The notes below the pieces were generated by a model. That model worked only from the letters and a program-made list of their open reading frames with translations. It was not told the DNA's origin and searched no databases. DNA of 33,041 nt, taken from a virus. This document shows positions 19,267 through 33,041 of this stretch, one piece after another (positions within the stretch are counted from its first letter, which is position 1; the number at the start of each line of letters is the position of its first letter). The position numbers and the translations under genes are program-made. Location of the stretch: IMG/VR virus record IMGVR_UViG_3300042480_000466, positions 1 through 33,041 of that record; one strand, given 5' to 3'.

Positions 19267-22200
19267 TTAATTGGTTGTTGCTTGACCAAATGAACCAAAT
19301 TTTGAGTTACTTGTTGCTAATAATTGATTTGCACGTTGACCATCAATATACACAGCAATTTGACCAGATGCCATCATAGAAGTCAATTTATCAAGTTTTT
19401 CTGCTAAAACTCTATTGGAATTTACAATTGTATTGATCAATAAATCATCAGTTTTTACACTTGTTTTTGATTCAGTCGCAGTTTTTGATGGAGTTTCTTC
19501 TGATGTTCCGACTATTCTACCAACAAAACTAAAAGTTTTTCCTATTGTATCAGATATAAATGAACCAATACCTTTCATTTTTTCCCATACTTTTTCAAGA
19601 GCACCAATAATAAAAGTAAAAGCTCCACTGAATGTGTCTTTGAGAAAAGTACCAACTTCAGATACAGCAGACTTTATTAGTTCAAATCCTTTTTTAAATG
19701 GATATGTAATCAAATCAAACATCACATCCATTACGGATTTGAAAGCATCAACAAATGTTGTTTTTAAAATATTTATAATCTCTGGTATAATTTGAGCGGC
19801 TTTTTTAAATGGATATGTAAGTACATCAAATAACATATCTACTACAGATTTAATACCATCAACAATCGCTAAACCGATTTCGGATGGAGATTTACCACCC
19901 AATTTATCCATTACCCAATTATATACCAATTCAAATGGCCATTTAAGTATAGTATATAAAGTGTCTGCTACAGATGCAATACCGTCAGCGATTGCGTTCA
20001 GTCCAAAAGCTTTCAAAATTAACAATCCTAATTTTCCCACTGTTTTAGCTATAGCTATAGGCAATTTAACAAAGTGAAATACAATAATTTCAATTGCTAA
20101 TCTTCCAATATTTGCAAAAATTTTACCCCATTCAATTCCCCCACCGCCACCACTAAATAACTCTTCTATTTTATCAGGCAAACTCGTTAGTGCGTCTAAT
20201 AAAAAGTTGGTTACGTCTTTAAATATTCCCGCAAAATCTATATCGGCTAAAAACGACGGTATCTTTTTAAGAAAATCCCAAACCATTTTTAATGGTTCTA
20301 CAACCAAAGCATTAACTACAGCTTTTAATCCAGCTACTGCTTTTTGACTCACGGTACCTGTCGTTTCATTAAATGCTTTAAAAAACGCTATGCCACCTTG
20401 AATCACAGATACAACTAGTCCTATTGGTCCTAAAAATTTAGCTACTGCTCCAAAAATCGGAGCGAGTTTTGAAAAAAACCCAATGCCAGTACCAAGTTTG
20501 CCAAATATTCCACCCACAAAACTTCCAATTCCTTTTACCGAACTACCTAGTCCACTAAATACGTTTGAGATAATATTTCCAATTTTTGAAATTGCTGGAA
20601 ATTTTGTAAATACTTTTTCAATATTCATTCCGATATTAAAAACGCTATTTGAAAGTTTTGTTAATTGTGTAGATCCTTTTCCGATAAAATTAGATATGGA
20701 TTGAAATCCCGTACCAAATCCTTTTAATGTATCTGATGCTGATTTTAGTCCACTTGCGATCTTTTCTATTTTTAACGAAATATTTACTATCGTGTTTATG
20801 ATACCCGATGTACTCGTTGACCACCCAATAAAAATACTTGATATTTTTAGCGCCGATGATAAAAATTGTGAAGAATAAGTAATTAATTTTCCAAATCCAC
20901 TTGTCATTTTTCCTATCCCACCCAATATATTTGATACTATAGATAAACTTTTAAACATCATATATAGTTTACCCACTTCTTGTGCAAATTTTTTGATTTC
21001 TTCTCGGTTATCTTTTATATATTTTAATAACTGTGTAAATATTGGTCCAATTTCTTCCAATATAGGCCCAATAAATTCCATAAAAATTGCATTAATTTCA
21101 TTTTGCAACTGTTTCATTCTGGTTTGATTTTTTTCTTGAATCAACCCTTTTTCATATTCGGCTTGAGCAGCTTTTTTAGCAGCAATAGGATCGTTCTTCA
21201 TCATTTCCGCCATTTGCTTTTTCTTCTCTGCTTCGGCTCTTACCAATGGATCTTTTGATTTTAATGCTTCTTTCAGATTTTCTTCAGCATTTAACATTTC
21301 TTGCAATTCTTTTACAGTCTTACCAGCAGCTTTTGCAAACGCGTCTTGTGCAATTGGATTTAACTGATTGAACTTAATTTTCTTAGCTTGATCCAATATT
21401 AATTTATTTGCCCCAATAATATCGCCTTGAAATGCCAATCTGCGAGCTTCATTAAAATTAATATTTTTACCAATCAATGCACTAGCTTTTAATTCTGATT
21501 GAATACTACTTTCAAAGTCAAGCAAACCCTTTGCAGTTTTTGCCATATTGTCAAGAGTAGTACCCATTTGTCTAGCTTGAGCTGCAGCTCTAACCATTTC
21601 ATCTGCATTTTTACCAGCAAACATTCTAGCTTCTTCAGATGCATTTGCGACATCGTTCATTACATCGTCCAACCCAACTCCATAAGCATTTGCAGCAAAT
21701 TTTGCCAATCCCAACATATTTTGTTTGGCTATTGCACTTTTTCCAGATACGCCACCTAACGTTTGTAGAAACTTAACACTTGTTTCAGAAGCTACTCCAA
21801 ATTGAGCAGACATTATTGAAACATCTTTAACCAATCCTTTTTCCATAGATTGCAAACTTGTAAAAGTTGAACCTATTTGTTTCATTGTTCCGCCAAGTTG
21901 TTCAGCGTTTATACCAAACTCAGCTAACTCAATAGAAGCTTCTCGTATGTTTTTTTCAAAAATTGCACCCTGACTTGGTAATAGTCCAAATTTTTGTCTA
22001 ACATTTGTAGCAGCGGTGTCAATTTGATTAAAAACGTCTAATATTCTTTCAAAAGTACCAGCTAATGTGGTGGGTATATTTAGTTTAGTTGCTAAACCCG
22101 AAGCCAAATCACCCATCTTGTTTAACAACTTTACACCCATCTCCAATGCTTTGTTATATAAATCTATTAACTCGTTTGCTGCTTTTAGTAAAAAATTATG

Positions 22201-22674
22201 TAGTTTTAACGATTCTAACTTGGAAGCACTGTTTTTCAATAAATGTTCTTCCAAATTCAACTCGGTTGATTTTTTATTAATTAAATCTTGTAAAGCTATA
22301 ACAGTATCGCTGGTAGGATCTTTACTTTGCTCTACTAGAAGTTCAGCTGCGTTTGTCAATAATTCATTTTGTAAACTCTCTATTTTTATGTAACTGTTGA
22401 TACGTGCCTGTGCAAATTCATTTAACTTTTTTTCAGAATTTACAAATTTTGATGATAATTTTTCTTGTAAACTTTTTCCTTTTAACTGTTCATCAAGCTT
22501 ATCTTTTTGTGTTTTATATGCCTGTCCTAACTGTTTGGCTATATCAACCATTCTTTTCTCGGTATCAACTATCTTGTCTAGATTAGACAGAGTATCTTTG
22601 ATTTCAGCGTTTAAATTATTAAACGCCTCTACTAGTTTATCCGCTGTTGCTTTATCAAATGGTTGTGCTGCCAT
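19267..22674 (-). CDS. Tape measure protein
   Basis: The protein is threaded in the tail tube, sets its length and leaves with the DNA on infection. It has the usual composition: a helical, coiled-coil N-terminal third (about 1-170), a conserved-looking globular segment around 190-500, a charged helix near 490-535, then a long hydrophobic, Gly- and Phe-rich middle (about 560-1000) and a short polar C-terminus. Near the C-terminus a 37-42-residue unit repeats about three times (LKWPFE, LTYPFKK, ITYPFKK cores). At about 0.15 nm per residue the 1135 residues predict a tail near 170 nm, longer than T4. The gene follows the gp26-like gene and its frameshift extension, the usual place for a tape measure. 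The ATG is 6 nt after a TATTTATA motif. Confidence 0.9.
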   Translation of the reverse strand: MAAQPFDKATADKLVEAFNNLNAEIKDTLSNLDKIVDTEKRMVDIAKQLGQAYKTQKDKLDEQLKGKSLQEKLSSKFVNSEKKLNEFAQARINSYIKIESLQNELLTNAAELLVEQSKDPTSDTVIALQDLINKKSTELNLEEHLLKNSASKLESLKLHNFLLKAANELIDLYNKALEMGVKLLNKMGDLASGLATKLNIPTTLAGTFERILDVFNQIDTAATNVRQKFGLLPSQGAIFEKNIREASIELAEFGINAEQLGGTMKQIGSTFTSLQSMEKGLVKDVSIMSAQFGVASETSVKFLQTLGGVSGKSAIAKQNMLGLAKFAANAYGVGLDDVMNDVANASEEARMFAGKNADEMVRAAAQARQMGTTLDNMAKTAKGLLDFESSIQSELKASALIGKNINFNEARRLAFQGDIIGANKLILDQAKKIKFNQLNPIAQDAFAKAAGKTVKELQEMLNAEENLKEALKSKDPLVRAEAEKKKQMAEMMKNDPIAAKKAAQAEYEKGLIQEKNQTRMKQLQNEINAIFMEFIGPILEEIGPIFTQLLKYIKDNREEIKKFAQEVGKLYMMFKSLSIVSNILGGIGKMTSGFGKLITYSSQFLSSALKISSIFIGWSTSTSGIINTIVNISLKIEKIASGLKSASDTLKGFGTGFQSISNFIGKGSTQLTKLSNSVFNIGMNIEKVFTKFPAISKIGNIISNVFSGLGSSVKGIGSFVGGIFGKLGTGIGFFSKLAPIFGAVAKFLGPIGLVVSVIQGGIAFFKAFNETTGTVSQKAVAGLKAVVNALVVEPLKMVWDFLKKIPSFLADIDFAGIFKDVTNFLLDALTSLPDKIEELFSGGGGGIEWGKIFANIGRLAIEIIVFHFVKLPIAIAKTVGKLGLLILKAFGLNAIADGIASVADTLYTILKWPFELVYNWVMDKLGGKSPSEIGLAIVDGIKSVVDMLFDVLTYPFKKAAQIIPEIINILKTTFVDAFKSVMDVMFDLITYPFKKGFELIKSAVSEVGTFLKDTFSGAFTFIIGALEKVWEKMKGIGSFISDTIGKTFSFVGRIVGTSEETPSKTATESKTSVKTDDLLINTIVNSNRVLAEKLDKLTSMMASGQIAVYIDGQRANQLLATSNSKFGSFGQATTN
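19691..19990 (-). repeat. Imperfect repeats within the tape measure gene
   Basis: Three diverged copies encode hydrophobic units with cores LTYPFKK, ITYPFKK and LKWPFE, spaced 37-42 residues apart. The DNA copies are similar, for example AAATGGATATGTAA occurs twice. Each unit may correspond to a turn of tail length gained by duplication. Confidence 0.6.
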
Positions 22675-22709: not shown

Positions 22710-22922
22710 CTAAAAAGGCTTATCTACTTTACCTGACTTTTTAGCAGGTTCTTTGTAACTATCACTTTCTTTATTCTTTATATTTGCTAATTGAGCATAG
22801 TAAAAATTACGTAAAAATACAGGTAAATTATACGCAATTTGTACATTTACCGCTCCTTGCGAGAAATAACTCAATTCAAATATTTGACCGTGAACTTGTA
22901 ACTTATATTCAGGACTCAGGCC
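22710..22922 (-). CDS. Frameshift extension of the gp26-like protein (tail assembly, 70 codons, no start of its own)
   Basis: A 70-codon open frame reads GLSPEYKLQVHGQIFELSYF and later NLPVFLRNFYYAQL, then a Lys-rich end, and stops at TAG 22710-22712. It has no ATG or GTG start; a TGA in its own frame lies just upstream, so it can only be entered between about 22938 and 22911. In that window, the gp26-like frame reads CAG TTT TTT TGG over a run of seven T (22923-22929). Slipping +1 lets tRNA-Phe re-pair fully with TTT and reads GGC CTG next. The product would be a 340-residue fusion. A short frameshifted gene just before the tape measure gene is a conserved theme of tail assembly chaperones. 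Confidence is high that it is coding and moderate on mechanism. Confidence 0.75.
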   Translation of the reverse strand, partial: GLSPEYKLQVHGQIFELSYFSQGAVNVQIAYNLPVFLRNFYYAQLANIKNKESDSYKEPAKKSGKVDKPF

Positions 22923-23733
22923 AAAAAAACTGTACCGTCATCGGTACATCCATCCTTTCCACCTCACCACAGTGTTCACATACAAAGTCAAAACCCATAT
23001 CCAATTCAGGCGCAATTGTTTTAATATAAGCTCTTAGTGCCATACTGTCTTTTGACAACAACTCATTGTCAACAAATTTATTGATAGATGCAATATCTGG
23101 TTTTCCATCTATACTTACAATCAGCTTTTTAAGTCTGGTAGTTACTTCTGTACTGGCTTGTTTTTTGATCTTGGTCATCGCTTTAATATCACGATCAATG
23201 CTTTCTTGATCACCAGATGTAACAAGTTTAAATGTTATTCTACGTTTACAATATGGAAACTCAAATTCAAATTCATTACTACCCTTCTGAAACTTATTGA
23301 AGTCCACTTCTTTTTCATTTAATGTACTTAAATCAATATATGTTTTGTTTTCGGTATTACATTTTTTGCACTCAATTTTTACAGGCCCGTATTTGTCACC
23401 ATATGCCAAACGTCTAGCAGCAACAAACAGTGCATTTTTGTCTACCATCAACAAATCTTGTGTTCTTACGCCGGGCGTAACAATTAAAGATTCAAGCAAT
23501 TTATCCAATACAGTACCGTTTTTGATGAAGTTTTCATTGGTTAAAATGTCTTCTTCTCTAGCAGTCATCATCTTTAATTCCACACTACCTTTGCTTAGTG
23601 GACTAGACTCATCATAGAAATATCCTTTAGATGGCAATTCTATTGTTTCCGCAGGATAACTTGTAGGTGCAGCTGTTGTTGATGCAGTTGAATGTTGTTG
23701 CTTTAATTTTTGAATTATAATTTCGTCACTCAT
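22909..23733 (-). CDS. gp26-like baseplate hub / tail assembly protein
   Basis: The 274-residue protein carries IELPSKGYFY near residue 31, the opening block of the T4 gp26 baseplate family, followed by VELKMMTAREEDIL and LLMVDKNALFVAARRLAYG. Two CxxC pairs (C122/C125 and C252/C255) probably bind one zinc ion; the first is in ECKKCNTENKT and the second in VCEHCGEVER. The N-terminal 28 residues are a polar Thr/Ala-rich arm. In T4, gp26 is needed for hub assembly. The frame ends in QFFWPES*, and the TTTTTTT before TGG is a probable +1 slip site that would add 70 residues (22710-22922). The gene lies directly before the tape measure gene, the usual site of the frameshifted tail chaperone pair. 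Confidence 0.85.
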   Translation of the reverse strand: MSDEIIIQKLKQQHSTASTTAAPTSYPAETIELPSKGYFYDESSPLSKGSVELKMMTAREEDILTNENFIKNGTVLDKLLESLIVTPGVRTQDLLMVDKNALFVAARRLAYGDKYGPVKIECKKCNTENKTYIDLSTLNEKEVDFNKFQKGSNEFEFEFPYCKRRITFKLVTSGDQESIDRDIKAMTKIKKQASTEVTTRLKKLIVSIDGKPDIASINKFVDNELLSKDSMALRAYIKTIAPELDMGFDFVCEHCGEVERMDVPMTVQFFWPES

Positions 23734-23782: not shown

Positions 23783-24691
23783 TTAGGTATTTAATTGATG
23801 TTGAGCAGCATCACGAGCGGCTGTTTTACTGTCTACTGCATCTTTTTTGTTTTTTACACGTAGTTCAGCCGCAGCTTTTTCTTCGGGGGTAGTTGCAGCT
23901 TTTAAATCGTCATTTGCTTTTGTAAGTTCTTGTTGTGCCGCATCAAGTTCAACGGTACGAAGAACCAATCCAGCTTGATTATACTTTTTTCTTGCAGAAT
24001 TTATTTTAGCTTCGTCTTCTTTCATTATACCCACAATCAATTTCTTTAATAACTTCTTTTGTTTTTCGGTTAATTTACCAGTAATTTTACCCAATTTATT
24101 GTTTAATATATTATGAACATTTGTATTGTAATTACCAAACAAATCGATAATAAAAGCCTTTTGTTGTTCTGGGGTTAATGTAGCATATTGAGATCTTAAT
24201 TGACTTGCACTTCTAGCCGGTAACCCTAGTACTGTAAAATCTACAGTTGGTACTGTTATCAAGTATCCGTGTTTTATGGCTGGGTCTAATTTGGATTGAT
24301 TTTTTGGCAATGGCTGTAAATAAGAAGGAGATCCATCTTTTTTTACAAAGTTTTTGAATCTTGGATCTTCAATCATATCCTTTTCACTAACTGCAAAAAT
24401 AATAATATCACGTTCTATATTGATTGGTATTTGATTAGCTACACTTTTCAAGTTGTAGTTGTTTTTGACGTTTAGTATTTTGTTTGCCGGTATACCTGTG
24501 GTAATCATCATTTGCATTTTTTCATTGAAAGTAAATGGTGATTTTGGCAATTTTGTAACACCTGTGGTTGTTATGTATACATCATTACCACCAAATTTAG
24601 TGGTTAGGTAGTTGTATACACTTTTGTGACCTTTGTGAAAGGGATGAAATCTACCAGGATAAATTACGAATATTTTCTTGCCCATTTGCAT
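23783..24691 (-). CDS. HIGH-motif nucleotidyltransferase (cytidylyltransferase/NMNAT-like) with coiled-coil tail
   Basis: Residues 5-22 (KKIFVIYPGRFHPFHKGH) give the first strand and the HxGH nucleotide-binding motif (H19-H22) of the nucleotidyltransferase alpha/beta phosphodiesterase superfamily. LPARSASQLR near residue 170 fits the second motif (ISGTxVR-like). These enzymes transfer a nucleotidyl group to phosphate-containing small molecules, for example in NAD or phospholipid head-group synthesis; the substrate here is not determined. The last 80 residues are a charged Ala/Lys/Glu-rich helix, probably coiled coil. I chose the ATG at 24691 (MQMGKK) over ATG 24685 and the GTG upstream; the motif TATTTATTA is 4 nt before it. 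It lies between the tail tube and gp26-like genes, after a terminator, like an inserted moron gene. Confidence 0.78.
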   Translation of the reverse strand: MQMGKKIFVIYPGRFHPFHKGHKSVYNYLTTKFGGNDVYITTTGVTKLPKSPFTFNEKMQMMITTGIPANKILNVKNNYNLKSVANQIPINIERDIIIFAVSEKDMIEDPRFKNFVKKDGSPSYLQPLPKNQSKLDPAIKHGYLITVPTVDFTVLGLPARSASQLRSQYATLTPEQQKAFIIDLFGNYNTNVHNILNNKLGKITGKLTEKQKKLLKKLIVGIMKEDEAKINSARKKYNQAGLVLRTVELDAAQQELTKANDDLKAATTPEEKAAAELRVKNKKDAVDSKTAARDAAQHQLNT

Positions 24692-24695
24692 ATAG

Positions 24696-24704
24696 TAATA
24701 AATA
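24696..24704 (-). promoter_or_regulatory. TATTTATTA motif before the nucleotidyltransferase gene
   Basis: The coding strand reads TTCTATTTATTACTATATG. The motif lies immediately after the terminator of the tail tube gene and 4 nt before the ATG, the position expected of a promoter element that restarts transcription. Confidence 0.55.
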
Positions 24705-24707
24705 GAA

Positions 24708-24731
24708 AACCCCACAAATAAATGTGGGGTT
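24708..24731. terminator. Bidirectional hairpin terminator after the tail tube gene
   Basis: AACCCCACA and TGTGGGGTT form a perfect 9-bp stem with the 6-nt loop AATAAA. On the minus strand it follows the tube stop codon by 19 nt and is followed by TTTCTATTT; on the plus strand it is followed by CTTTTTG. It probably ends the tail tube transcript, keeping this abundant protein's mRNA separate from the next gene. Confidence 0.78.
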
Positions 24732-24750: not shown

Positions 24751-25242
24751 TTAATATTGGAGAATTGCGTAATCGTATGCTACAGATAAACTGATCATCT
24801 GAGCAGCACCGTCATCGCTCCAATCCATTTCTTGGAAATCAGCGCTTACGATAAATGAACCTACCAACTTCCATTCTTCTACTTTGTCACCTACTGGACC
24901 CAAGACGTTAATTGTTAGATCCTTCTTATAGAAGTCTTGGTAACCATCACGACCAGTAACTGATTCGTGGTGCAAACGTACCCATTCCATTACTGCTTGA
25001 GCACCGGATGGTACAATTGGATCATAAAGTTCCATACTGATTTCATCCCATACACTTTTACCCTTGTAGTAGGTTTTTACGTTAATATGGTCAAGTTCCT
25101 TCTTGGCTTGTGTTAGTTTAGGACGATTGACCTTTTTGATGATGAATGATGGAATACCATCAACATAAAGAATAAAACGATTCTTTACTTTTGGTTCGAA
25201 TGCCGTAGCGAATATTTCACTTGGATTTAGTAGTTCTGCCAT
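24751..25242 (-). CDS. Tail tube protein, T4 gp19-like
   Basis: The 163-residue protein matches the T4-like tail tube family in length and sequence, including NRFILYVDGIPSFIIKKVN near the N-terminus, ISMELYDPIVPSG in the middle, and a C-terminal block ADFQEMDWSDDGAAQMISLS, a recurring feature of gp19-type tube proteins. It polymerises into the hexameric-ring inner tube through which DNA and the tape measure protein pass. It is a single-gene unit: it has its own terminator (24708-24731) and an AAGG element 8 nt before ATG. Its codon use is richer in C-ending codons than that of the neighbouring nucleotide-enzyme genes, consistent with high expression. Confidence 0.93.
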   Translation of the reverse strand: MAELLNPSEIFATAFEPKVKNRFILYVDGIPSFIIKKVNRPKLTQAKKELDHINVKTYYKGKSVWDEISMELYDPIVPSGAQAVMEWVRLHHESVTGRDGYQDFYKKDLTINVLGPVGDKVEEWKLVGSFIVSADFQEMDWSDDGAAQMISLSVAYDYAILQY

Positions 25243-25305: not shown

Positions 25306-26469
25306 TCATTTACTCAAATTTTTATCTGTAATATTTGTGATAGCATTTTTTAGTTGATTGACGTAACCTGTGGATCTTAAAAGTTTAAACACCAAATTTT
25401 CTGTACTATACTCGCCGCTCTTACTTAATCCAGCTTCTCTCATTTCATACAAACGTTTAACTAAACGCTTTAATTTATCTAAATTTTGTTCTTTTATAGC
25501 TGTGGAAATAAACGAAACATATTGTTTGTATTTCTTTGTAATAGCATCTTTATCAATCTGAATGTCTTCTATTTTTGGCTTTTTTACCCATTCATTTTTC
25601 ATCAAACTATATACAGCTTGACTTCTATTGACCTCTTTAATATCTTGAATGTAAACTTCCACTGGATGATTGCCAATTCTAATGTTGTGGTTTTCATTCC
25701 ATTTGCTTTTTAAGCCATCCACATAATTCTTAACCAGTTCTTCATTTGGATCAATTTTGGAAAAATCTACAACCAAATGTAAGTCAATATCACTTGTTGG
25801 TGTCCAATTATATCCGGCAGTACTACCAAGAAAGTATATATTTTCAAGAGGTACATTCAAATCAGTATCTTTGTAAAAAGTATTTGCAATAGTTAATAAC
25901 TTGTTTAATACATCAGGTTTAATAGCATTTTCAGTAGCCCATATCTCAGGATTTAAAATGCTATTATAAATTCTATGAGATTCTTTGATACCCAACATTT
26001 CTTTTAGTTTATTAATTGTATCTATTGCGCTTTTATGCAATATTGCTTTACCACCAGCTTTGATAAAATCATTTACATTATCTTCACGGTCATCTATCAA
26101 AATACTATCAGGAGTTGCAAACTTTGCTTTTAAATTTCTATGCGGTACCAAATTAGCTTTAATATCAATATTGTTATTGGCTAACCACTGCTTTTTACCA
26201 ACATATGCCAAATTGGTAGGCGCATGACTCAATATCTCTACAGGCAAATTTGATACAAAATTATAAAGCAATCTGCCATCTTTCATCCAAGGCATACTAG
26301 AATAGTATTCAGGACAATTCTTATCTACAAACTTAAATCTATTCTTTTTACCGTGTTCAGCATCATAAGTTTCAACAGGTACACCACCACTATATCGCTT
26401 GAATTGCAATTCCCAATCACTTATCACACCATCCATATCCAAATATATTTTATGTTTATTAGTAATCAT
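25306..26469 (-). CDS. HAD-type 5'(3')-deoxyribonucleotidase fused to a pol-beta-type nucleotidyltransferase
   Basis: Two domains are clear. The N-terminal part (about 1-155) is a HAD phosphatase resembling the NT5C deoxyribonucleotidases: DMDG with D11 and D13, SHAPT (81-85) as motif II, and LIDDRED with D126/D127 as motif IV. The C-terminal part (about 170-330) is a pol-beta-type nucleotidyltransferase: FLGSTAGY with G215-S216, then SDIDLHLVV with catalytic D227 and D229. A short helical tail follows. The HAD domain may dephosphorylate a nucleotide or a polynucleotide end, and the other may transfer NMP; coupling of the two is inferred. The gene lies between the fibre and tail tube genes, outside the replication cluster. 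The ATG is 3 nt after TATTTATTA. I found no direct named homologue of the fusion. Confidence 0.82.
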   Translation of the reverse strand: MITNKHKIYLDMDGVISDWELQFKRYSGGVPVETYDAEHGKKNRFKFVDKNCPEYYSSMPWMKDGRLLYNFVSNLPVEILSHAPTNLAYVGKKQWLANNNIDIKANLVPHRNLKAKFATPDSILIDDREDNVNDFIKAGGKAILHKSAIDTINKLKEMLGIKESHRIYNSILNPEIWATENAIKPDVLNKLLTIANTFYKDTDLNVPLENIYFLGSTAGYNWTPTSDIDLHLVVDFSKIDPNEELVKNYVDGLKSKWNENHNIRIGNHPVEVYIQDIKEVNRSQAVYSLMKNEWVKKPKIEDIQIDKDAITKKYKQYVSFISTAIKEQNLDKLKRLVKRLYEMREAGLSKSGEYSTENLVFKLLRSTGYVNQLKNAITNITDKNLSK

Positions 26470-30122: not shown

Positions 30123-33041
30123 TTATTTATTTATCAATCGATTTATTGTTATTTGTTGTTCATCAACTATCTGCTTCAATTCTTTAACACCCTGTATCAA
30201 TACAGCTGTCAATTTACTATAATTTATACCAGATATATTACCCAACTCATCATAACTAACAAATTCAGGATATATCTTCACAACCTCTTCAGCTATCAAA
30301 CCAATACTAAATTCATTGTTGTTCTTATACCTAAATGTCACCGGATTCAATAACACAATCTTGTCCAATTGCGGCGGCAATAAAGGCATAATATCCGTTT
30401 TAGTATTTTCACTAGACGTTTCTATCAATGTAGTAGCACTAACAGTTCCAACAACTGTTAATGTAGTACCATCCACACTTAAAAAATTAACACTCTGTAA
30501 CGTAGTAAGACCAGTAGTTTTTACCAAATAATTAGGCTGATCAGTAAAACTACCACCACTAATTCCACTGGTACCACTAGGAGCACTAATACCACTAGTG
30601 CCACTCGTACCACTGCTACCACTAGTTCCACTTATACCACTACTTCCACTACTAGCACTAGCACCTCCACCAGCACTTACACCACTTGTTCCACTTGTAC
30701 CAACAGTACCACTACTACCACTCGTTCCGCTTGTGCCACTCGTACCACTGCTACCACTTGTTCCACTGGTTCCATTTCGACCACTTGTGCCACTGCTACC
30801 ACTTGTTCCGCTCGTTCCACTTGTGCCACTTGTTCCGTTTGTTCCACTTGTTCCGTTTTGACCGCTACTACCACTTGTGCCGCTCGTTCCACTACTACCA
30901 CTTGTACCACTACTACCACTTGTGGCACTATTACCGCTGCTACCACTATCACGACTAAATCCGCTTGTACCACTACTTCCACTTGTACCACTGGTTCCGC
31001 TTGTACCACTTGTACCACTGGTTCCATTTCGACCACTCGTACCACTTGTACCACTTGTACCACTGCTACCACTACTACCACTACTACCACTGGTTCCGCT
31101 TGTGCCACTAGTACCGCTTGTTCCGTTTTGACCGCTGCTACCACTTGTTCCACTTGTACCGCTACTACCACTTGTACCACTACTACCACTTGTGGCACTA
31201 TTACCGCTGCTACCACTATCACGACTAAATCCGCTTGTACCACTGCTACCACTAGTACCACTTGTTCCGCTTGTTCCGCTTGTGCCACTTGTACCACTGG
31301 TTCCATTTCTACCACTGCTACCACTAATACCACTGCTACCACTGCTACCACTAGTTCCACTTGTTCCGCTAGTGCCACTCGTTCCATTTGTTCCGCTTGT
31401 TCCGTTTTGACCACTGCTACCACTTGTTCCACTTGTACCGCTACTACCACTTGTACCACTACTACCACTTGTGGCACTATTACCACTGCTACCACTATCA
31501 CGACTAAATCCGCTTGTACCACTGCTACCACTAGTACCACTGGTACCACTTGTTCCGCTTGTTCCACTGGTGCCATTTGATCCGCTTATACCACTTGTAC
31601 CACTAGTACCATTAGTACCACTGCTACCACTTGATCCACTTGTTCCACTTGTGCCACTAGTACCATTTGTACCATTTGACCCACTTATACCACTTGTTCC
31701 ACTCGTTCCACTGGTACCATTTGATCCACTCGTACCACTAGTGCCACTGGTACCACTGCTCCCACTTGATCCACTTGTTCCGCTTGTGCCACTAGTACCA
31801 TTTGACCCACTTGATCCACTTGTACCACTTGATCCACTTGACCCACTTGATCCACTTGACCCACTTGACCCACTTGATCCACTTGATCCACTTACACCAG
31901 ACGATCCGCTACTACCACTAGTACCGCTTGTGCCACTAGTACCATTTGACCCACTTATACCACTTGTGCCACTTGATCCATTACTGCCGCTTGTTCCACT
32001 TGTTCCGCTTGTGCCACTAGTACCACTTGATCCGCTTGTACCACTTGTGCCACTGCTACCACTGGTACCATTAGATCCACTTGTACCGCTTGTGCCACTA
32101 GTACCATTTGTACCACTTGTACCGTTAGATCCACTTGATCCGCTAGTACCAGACGATCCGCTACTACCACTTGTACCGTTTGATCCGCTTATACCACTTG
32201 TGCCACTTGTACCACTGGTGCCGTTTGTTCCACTGCTACCACTTATACCAGACGATCCGCTACTACCACTTGTACCGTTGGATCCACTTGTGCCACTTGT
32301 ACCGTTAGATCCGCTTGTACCGTTAGATCCGCTTGTACCACTTGATCCACTTGATCCGCTTGTGCCACTTGATCCACTTGATCCACTTGACCCACTGGTG
32401 CCGTTCGATCCGCTTGTACCACTTGTGCCACTTGATCCACTTGACCCACTTATACCAGACGATCCGCTACTACCACTAGTACCGCTTGTACCACTAGTAC
32501 CACTAGTACCACTAGTACCACTTGTACCGTTAGATCCACTTGTGCCACTAGTACCACTGCTTCCACTTGTGCCACTGCTTCCATTTGATCCACTTGTACC
32601 ACTACTACCACTTGTACCACTTGTACCACTACTGCCACTTGTACCGTTGGATCCACTTGTGCCACTAGTACCACTGCTTCCACTTGATCCACTTGATTCA
32701 CTTACGCCACTGGTGCCGCTTGTTCCATTTGTACCACTGCTGCCACTTATACCAGAAGATCCACTACTACCACTTGTGCCACTTGTGCCATTAGATCCAC
32801 TTGTACCGCTTGATCCATTTGACCCACTTGTACCGCTTGATCCACTTGACCCACTTGTACCATTTGATCCACTTGACCCACTTGTACCACTTGTGCCGCT
32901 TGTACCACTTGTGCCATTAGATCCACTTGTTCCACTAGTACCGCTTGTGCCATTAGATCCGCTCGTACCACTAGTACCACTAGTGCCGCTTGTGCCGCTT
33001 GTGCCATTTGATCCACTAGTACCACTTGATCCACTACTACC
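30123..33041 (-). CDS. Giant collagen-like tail protein with C-terminal intramolecular chaperone domain (5' end outside window)
   Basis: One frame is open from the window edge to TAA at 30123 (973 codons). Almost 830 residues are Gly-X-Y triplets, mainly GTS, GSS, GTN and GSN, with X and Y being Thr, Ser or Asn and no proline scaffold. A short tail (FTDQPNYLVKTTGLTTLQSV) links to the C-terminal domain: SSENTKTDI with a Ser-Lys pair like the catalytic dyad of S74 endosialidase chaperones, then LLNPVTFRYKN, IGLIAEEVVKIYPEFV and YSKLTAVLIQGVKELK. Such domains help the fibre trimerise and then cleave themselves off. No start codon is in the window; a TTG at 30525-30527 is internal. Gly positions are broken in a few places (RDS, ATS, ESS, APS triplets). 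It is probably a trimeric fibre arm. Confidence 0.85.
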   Translation of the reverse strand, partial: GSSGSSGTSGSNGTSGTSGTSGTSGTSGSNGTSGTSGTSGSNGTSGTSGTSGTSGSSGSNGTSGSSGSSGTSGSNGSSGTSGSNGTSGTSGSSGSSGISGSSGTNGTSGTSGVSESSGSSGSSGTSGTSGSNGTSGSSGTSGTSGSSGTSGSNGSSGTSGSSGTSGTSGSNGTSGTSGTSGTSGTSGTSGSSGSSGISGSSGSSGTSGTSGSNGTSGSSGSSGSSGTSGSSGSSGTSGSNGTSGSNGTSGTSGSNGTSGSSGSSGISGSSGTNGTSGTSGTSGISGSNGTSGSSGSSGTSGSSGSNGTSGTNGTSGTSGTSGSNGTSGSSGTSGTSGSSGTSGTSGTSGTSGSNGSSGTSGISGSNGTSGTSGTSGSSGSSGVSGSSGSSGSSGSSGSSGSSGSSGTSGSSGSNGTSGTSGTSGSSGSSGTSGTSGTSGSNGTSGTSGTSGISGSNGTNGTSGTSGTSGSSGSSGTNGTSGTSGISGSNGTSGTSGTSGTSGTSGSSGTSGFSRDSGSSGNSATSGSSGTSGSSGTSGTSGSSGQNGTSGTNGTSGTSGTSGTSGSSGSSGISGSSGRNGTSGTSGTSGTSGTSGTSGSSGTSGFSRDSGSSGNSATSGSSGTSGSSGTSGTSGSSGQNGTSGTSGTSGTSGSSGSSGSSGTSGTSGTSGRNGTSGTSGTSGTSGTSGSSGTSGFSRDSGSSGNSATSGSSGTSGSSGTSGTSGSSGQNGTSGTNGTSGTSGTSGTSGSSGTSGRNGTSGTSGSSGTSGTSGTSGSSGTVGTSGTSGVSAGGGASASSGSSGISGTSGSSGTSGTSGISAPSGTSGISGGSFTDQPNYLVKTTGLTTLQSVNFLSVDGTTLTVVGTVSATTLIETSSENTKTDIMPLLPPQLDKIVLLNPVTFRYKNNNEFSIGLIAEEVVKIYPEFVSYDELGNISGINYSKLTAVLIQGVKELKQIVDEQQITINRLINK
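30560..33041 (-). repeat. Low-complexity Gly-X-Y coding repeat
   Basis: Nearly 2.5 kb is a 9-bp-like degenerate repeat (ACCACTNGT on the plus strand). Codons for Gly, Ser and Thr vary at third positions, so copies are rarely identical at the DNA level. From about 31800 upward GSS and GSN triplets become more frequent than in 30560-31560. The repeat makes many long spurious frames on both strands. It continues beyond the window edge. Confidence 0.9.
30770..31560 (-). repeat. Three tandem units of about 270-280 bp inside the collagen-like gene
   Basis: Two landmarks recur with equal spacing: TTCCGTTTTGACC (GQNG) at 30851, 31121 and 31400, and the interruption encoding GFSRDSGSSGNSATSG near 30921, 31191 and 31470. 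Spacings are 270 and 279 bp, both multiples of three. Each unit has two triplets where Gly is replaced (RDS and ATS). This is recent tandem duplication of a 90-93-residue block. Confidence 0.85.

Follow-up and report, generated by a model that had tools for sequence, protein, structure and literature searches.

Tail assembly chaperones (TACs) of T4-like phages are said to come from a single frameshifted gene in several groups and from genes 26 and 51 in T4, as reportedly found in 2022 by Vladimirov, Gautam and Davidson. Passages in PMC12846349 and PMC10885494 name Vladimirov et al. (2022) as the source on TAC genes of T4-like phages that use either a frameshift or a short and a long gene, and going by these passages the role of a T4-type gp26 as a tail assembly chaperone, put forward for our locus in an earlier note, is already in print. 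T4 gp26 and gp51 are also listed as hub assembly chaperones in a passage of PMC3004832, where gp51 is described as being of unknown function and absent from the particle. In phage lambda, a -1 frameshift adds a C-terminal extension to the short form gpG, giving gpGT, which acts on the tape measure protein; the passages of PMC5009743 that describe this call G-T frameshifting in tailed phages 'widely conserved ... except T4' and the shift in the tail chaperone of the archaeal virus HSTV-2 'very likely +1'. A claim to have solved the T4 exception here was dropped, as the citing passages place its publication in 2022. A +1 site consisting of CUU before a stop is given for release factor 2 (prfB) in a passage of PMC10885494.

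Judged from its sequence and that of its relatives, the locus described here, in a tailed-phage fragment of 33041 bases from a virus record (the window, i.e. the whole stretch analysed), most likely has a conserved +1 shift site that makes a long tail assembly chaperone. With the T4-like TACs it shares the family (PF12322, phrog_150), a homologous extension, predicted short and long forms and a single gene with overlapping frames. It differs from the cyanophages, KVP40/Aeh1 and jumbo phages examined, which shift by -1 at T_TTT_TTC or T_TTT_TTT, whereas the window group would shift by +1 at YTT_TGG, and from T4, where the two forms are separate genes instead of one gene with overlapping frames. 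The window falls outside the -1 class of T4-like shifts, as the -1 frame is open for just 14 codons in near-identical relatives and the extension lies in +1. Like lambda gpG/gpGT, it would combine a short with a frameshift-extended form (-1 in lambda, +1 here), a likeness seen in the layout; with HSTV-2, an archaeal myovirus, it shares by description a tail chaperone that is probably made by a +1 shift. In prfB as in the +1 loci the P-site YUU re-pairs +1 on UUU, and CTT_TGG differs from CUU_UGA by one base, but the A site holds a stop in prfB and a sense UGG (or UAC, CUA) here; the window has the YTT_T slip with TGG in place of the stop. The +1 direction, which is compatible with one origin, and the sense codon in the A site look new. 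In the literature covered, with most subscription journals outside that coverage, we recognised no report of a +1 shift in the T4-type TAC family, and the passages of PMC5587285, PMC11821841, PMC11131426, PMC12671138 and PMC9603447 add nothing on shift direction.

Gene order and reading frames

The features that the following sections refer to are all on the minus strand:

24751..25242, minus strand: tail tube gene (phrog_4542, E 3e-25)
23783..24715, minus strand: cytidylyltransferase-like (nucleotidyltransferase-like) gene (PF01467), between the tail tube and chaperone genes
22909..23733, minus strand: gp26-like gene, zero frame, predicted short chaperone form (TAC-N), 274 aa (Pfam PF12322, phrog_150)
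22938..22940, minus strand: upstream TGA closing the +1 frame (sequence reading)
22921..22929, minus strand: predicted shift site TTT TTT TGG (sequence reading; TTT_TGG_CCT kept in 46/46 relatives)
22909..22911, minus strand: zero-frame stop TGA (sequence reading)
22713..22922, minus strand: +1-frame extension (TAC-C domain), 70 codons after FF, predicted three helices (AlphaFold2; dN below dS in close pairs)
22872..22874, minus strand: TTG, sole start-like codon of the extension frame, 16 codons into the extension, within the conserved domain (frame codon 286)
22710..22712, minus strand: extension stop TAG (sequence reading)
19267..22674, minus strand: tape measure protein gene, 1135 aa, beginning 35 nt past the extension stop (phrog_5493, E 5e-7)

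The order tail tube, gp26-like gene, tape measure is present in the window and in its relatives. The PF01467 gene between tube and chaperone was found in L001-L034, L047 and L048 and weakly in L045, and was not found there in L035-L044 or L046. Upstream of the tail tube gene, at 25306-26469, a 5'-3' deoxyribonucleotidase-like part (phrog_2643, residues 3-162) is fused to a phrog_36119 part.

The gp26-like protein matched PF12322 (T4_baseplate, gp26/gp51) with 45.5 bits and E 9e-12, exceeding the curated cut-off of 24.5, and phrog_150 ('baseplate hub') with E 9e-14. Its zero-frame ORF (23733..22909) ends with CAG TTT TTT TGG CCT GAG TCC TGA, in which the T7 run occupies 22923-22929, the P-site TTT 22926-22924 and the zero-frame A-site TGG 22923-22921; after a +1 slip GGC (22922-22920) would stand in the A site, and FFGLSPEYK is the predicted fusion peptide across the junction. 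The TGA at 22940-22938 closes the +1 frame just upstream, as the earlier note had stated, and entry into this frame must therefore come downstream of it. The same note described the extension frame as having no start codon, which is correct for ATG and GTG and has to be amended for the one TTG at 22874-22872.

Conservation of the +1 frame in relatives

The closest relatives comprised 48 loci, two of which end before the 3' end of the gene, leaving 46 usable ones with 47-100% protein identity. All 46 keep the +1 extension together with TTT_TGG_CCT; in L023 the extension itself reaches the locus end. A further 182 loci were obtained with queries from Mel-JY01, immuto, LIS04 and LR756508 (for Mel-JY01 and immuto the best 80 of at least 600 IMG/VR matches each), five of which reach the contig end too early to be classed. 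Of the remaining 177 among the matches listed, 175 encode the extension in +1, with YTT_TGG in 166; within these listed 175, the sites are TTT_TGG (132), CTT_TGG (34), which is also the site of phage immuto, and others (9). Taken together, the 46 closest and 175 further +1 loci show YTT_TGG in 212 of 221 cases among the matches listed. The same +1 frame is seen in the isolate genomes immuto, Mel-JY01 and RM378. The +1 second frame after the gp26-like gene is thus confirmed as a conserved feature. The reading proposed in the earlier note, in which a +1 frameshift lengthens the gp26-like protein immediately ahead of the tape measure gene, is supported as the best one.

The nine loci lacking YTT_TGG carry TTT_TAC (L314, L316), CTT_TAC (L362), CTA_TGG preceded by TTT_CTA (L334, L345, L356, L359) or a Thornevirus-type site (L404, L405). 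Except for the Thornevirus type, they still fit a tRNA-Phe slip on TTT_C or a YTT slip on T. In Thornevirus-type phages of Firmicutes (L404, L405, L054, L070, L052) the extension likewise lies in +1, but YTT_TGG is missing; our guess for them is a slip on the codon that precedes CGA or AGA. Several points bear on how these counts are to be read. The P1 extension HMM was seeded with 18 of the 46 closest loci and three named phages, and the classing of those loci is partly circular; none of the loci of the further set or of the -1 sets was used as a seed, yet L404 and L207 are apparently seed genomes. One locus scan used an FF-containing peptide pattern, which favours FF, not its codons. The extension reaches the locus end in 11 of 221 +1 loci among the matches listed and in 3 of 117 -1 loci. 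The P-site TTT in all 46 closest relatives is only weakly surprising, because TTT makes up 82% of the Phe codons there. A single-protein search of genome contigs for a relative found none.

The earlier note had placed the slip on the T7 run and asked for its joint conservation with the second frame. The full re-pairing of tRNA-Phe after +1 stands, and all 46 relatives keep the second frame, but TTTTTTT is present in the window and in 45 of the 46. In the remaining one, L036, the site is CAG TTC TTT TGG, and the frame is the same without a T7 run, as it is in immuto and in the 34 further CTT_TGG loci among the matches listed. This matters for two other explanations, since RNA polymerase slippage on the widespread T7 run, or a ribosomal -2 shift, would give an identical downstream frame, and a T7/T6 miscall, with a true T6 and one continuous ORF, would look identical in a single genome. 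That the run is dispensable argues against all of these. A -2 slip in L036 would moreover place tRNA-Phe on TCT, and we regard slippage or a -2 shift as very unlikely. A homopolymer error in sequencing or assembly is hardly credible at all, as the same frame recurs in 46 of 46 relatives, which come from separate contigs and have protein identities as low as 47%, and in the isolate genomes immuto, Mel-JY01 and RM378, besides the CTT_TGG sites that have no T7 run; as an explanation for the clade it is, on these sequences, already refuted. The +1 slip is the reading that we retain, and as far as the comparison of sites goes, the functional site is YTT_TGG and not the T7 run as such.

Selection and start codons in the extension

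Over the extension, dS exceeded dN when L001 was paired with L017 (dS 0.295, dN 0.029), L028 (0.432, 0.060), L029 (0.481, 0.068) and L032 (0.964, 0.175), and the two control frames of these same pairs had dN above dS. Control frames with dN below dS exist (e.g. L017/L028, L017/L029, L038/L044), but there the gap is far smaller. Altogether 66 pairs were compared, with dS saturated in many distant ones; the extension of L017/L038 is without dS excess (dS 0.505, dN 0.506). Purifying selection acts on the second frame among close relatives. The locus shows three features of a TAC pair: the tube/tape-measure position, a selected second frame overlapping at the 3' end and a conserved shift site in the overlap.

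A selected frame could also belong to a separate gene, translated from its own start or by re-initiation past the zero-frame stop. A start codon lies upstream of the slip or at most 12 codons after it in 132 of 221 +1 loci (ATG in 83) among the matches listed, so that codon absence alone cannot settle every locus. The TTG of the window recurs as the first start-like codon in 36 of the 46 closest loci, among which near-copies are frequent, and cyanophage P-SSM2 is annotated with distinct gp26 and gp51. The earlier note had named an ATG-led second gene in relatives as the refuting case, and such genes do occur in two of the 177 further loci among the matches listed. In L417 (2209-2300) and L421 (2206-2300), distant loci with 41-42% identity to their query, the extension domain forms an ATG-led ORF just past the zero-frame stop, whose N-terminus consists of about 25 new residues; the ATG lies 5 and 8 nt, respectively, from the start of that stop, and L421 retains CTT_TGG. 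Their layout is unlike that of the window, where the frame is without ATG or GTG and its TTG lies 16 codons inside the domain. Moreover, where the extension is complete (210 +1 loci among the matches listed), this frame lacks an ATG in 45 loci, and four (L045, L268, L269, L296) have no ATG, GTG or TTG. On balance a separate gene is very unlikely, and the frameshift into the extension is preferred.

Homology of the extension and relation to T4 gp26 and gp51

Jumbo phages, cyanophages, KVP40, Aeh1, HTVC008M and phiM12 encode the extension in the -1 frame, with the change of frame at the Phe-Phe that is also conserved in the +1 loci. Two IMG/VR sets have a -1 extension with T_TTT_TTC in 80 of 80 loci (the best 80 among the matches listed) and in 37 of 37; TTC makes up 21-25% of the Phe codons in -1 loci, and a preceding T, expected in 73.4 of the 117, was seen in all 117 among the matches listed. 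Profile comparison by hhalign matched the +1 extension to that of the -1 jumbo phages (prob 93%, E 3.5e-7), of the cyanophage/KVP40 type (prob 81%, E 1.3e-5) and of the Thornevirus type (prob 91%), and the cyanophage-type extension to the C-terminus of T4 gp51 (residues 191-249; prob 87%, E 4e-6), with reversed-profile controls at or below 1.3%. A direct comparison of the +1 extension with the T4 gp51 tail gave 0.17%, which is not significant, so that the link to T4 gp51 is transitive, via the cyanophages. As the RM378 extension (TTT_TGG site) matched no other group, RM378 is counted for frame layout and not for domain homology. PHROGs has no family for the extension of the window. Homology to the -1 extensions, and through the cyanophages to the gp51 C-terminus, points to a TAC-N/TAC-NC pair of the lambda G/GT kind.

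T4 gp26 (1-206) and gp51 (1-201 of 249) both span the whole length of PF12322, and two PF12322 copies are present in T4 and in five of five other gp51-bearing Straboviridae, one in 23 of 26 records. Pfam missed the known PF12322-type copy in two of the 26, immuto and Mel-JY01, and a diverged second copy could therefore be missed elsewhere too. The gp51 of P-SSM2 (gp26/gp51, L109:1996-2891) and other cyanophages is annotated separately, but its frame overlaps gp26 at T_TTT_TTC, and it is therefore probably the -1 extension.

In a TAC-N tree of 52 rows (quick search; L417 and L421 left out), the three modes (-1, +1, two genes) need two changes, the minimum, and the two-gene state arose once (support 99). 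The +1 rows lie on one side of a branch with a weak support of 63, or 83 with the -1 row LR756511, and RM378 is on a very long branch. A single change of shift direction fits this tree but is not proved by it. We suggest only tentatively that the direction changed once in T4-type chaperones, from -1 at T_TTT_TTY to +1 at YTT_TGG, with the extension kept, and that the +1 shift needs neither a stop in the A site, which holds a sense codon, nor a conserved downstream RNA structure, perhaps being tuned by competition between tRNA-Trp and tRNA-Gly(GCC).

Proposed formation of a short and a long chaperone

Taken together, these comparisons make it very probable that the gp26-like gene yields a short and a long chaperone (TAC-N and TAC-NC) via a +1 slip at YTT_TGG. 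Most ribosomes would terminate at the TGA at 22911, giving the short TAC-N, and a minority, with tRNA-Phe on TTT and TGG waiting, would slip one base forward. The tRNA-Phe would re-pair fully on the overlapping TTT, GGC would enter the A site, and translation would continue for 70 codons to a TAC-NC of 340 aa (from the N-terminus through ...QFF-GLSPEYK... to KPF). If lambda G/GT is a guide, the tape measure protein may be coated by many copies of the short form, with a few copies of the long form bringing in the tail tube protein. The sequences themselves show the layout, its conservation, coding selection in close relatives and the homology of the extension to shifted-frame extensions of other TACs; synthesis of the two forms, the proportion between them and the proteins they bind are inferred.

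No consistent structure that could act as a downstream RNA stimulator was seen in 15 +1 sites (50 and 90 nt folded; 90-nt z -1.9 to +1.2). The 60 nt upstream of the slip had a negative folding z against dinucleotide shuffles in 14 of the 15 (-3.25 to +0.54), a mild trend, and no Shine-Dalgarno-like stretch common to the sites was seen by eye 5' of the slip. A record with an identical TAC-N, IMGVR_UViG_3300042940_001453 (132 kb, perhaps incomplete), carries eight tRNA genes including tRNA-Gly(GCC), with none for tRNA-Trp or tRNA-Phe among the eight. GGC is among the rarer Gly codons in the loci of the relatives (8.9 per thousand versus 35.5 for GGT). Help for the shift from the phage tRNA-Gly(GCC), which reads GGC, is a guess, and the common GGT is also read by this tRNA. 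Beside the eight tRNA genes there is a phage-borne tmRNA gene with the tag AEDNVVSYDFSYDDVVALAA (L243:9653-12426, at the contig end).

AlphaFold2 predicted three helices for the extension (residues 6-22, 29-34 and 37-59; mean pLDDT 82) and a TAC-N model with a mean pLDDT of 84. A Foldseek search of viral structures with the extension model gave no match at E <=0.001; the best, an uncharacterized Caudovirales protein (E 0.011, 30% identity over 70 columns), could itself be an extension of this kind. For the TAC-N model, Foldseek gave no PDB match at E <=0.001, and the best hit of a sequence search in solved structures was no better than E 0.3. VIA-align, run on 455 of Foldseek's 461 best chains, ranked YqbN (3klu; Z 5.2 over 83 residues, Foldseek E 1.0) first and the tail assembly chaperone of HK97 (2ob9; Z 4.9, 72 residues, Foldseek E 3.8) second, both weak matches below Z 8 that fall on different halves of TAC-N. 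YqbN is presumably a member of a phage tail chaperone family, and the two weak matches may point to the expected function or reflect no more than a common arrangement.

With this assignment, a common environmental phage group (at least 600 IMG/VR matches each for Mel-JY01 and immuto) would find its place in the tail-chaperone scheme, and two annotations would be explained, namely the extension cut short in immuto and the separate hypothetical protein in Mel-JY01. As phages appear to obtain the same two domains by a -1 shift, by a +1 shift, from two genes or from an ATG-led second ORF, they offer a natural comparison of whether the ratio, the fusion or the domains alone are needed. YTT_TGG would be compact as a +1 site, differing by one base from the CUU_UGA of prfB and having a sense codon in place of the stop.

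Other features of the window

Towards the end of the window, an open frame at 30123-33041 has GSSGTSG-type repeats in the first 400 residues shown, with a G+C content of up to 44% and a strong skew. The protein encoded beside it has 1162 aa and contains GIGTTSP motifs in several copies as well as a collagen-like stretch.
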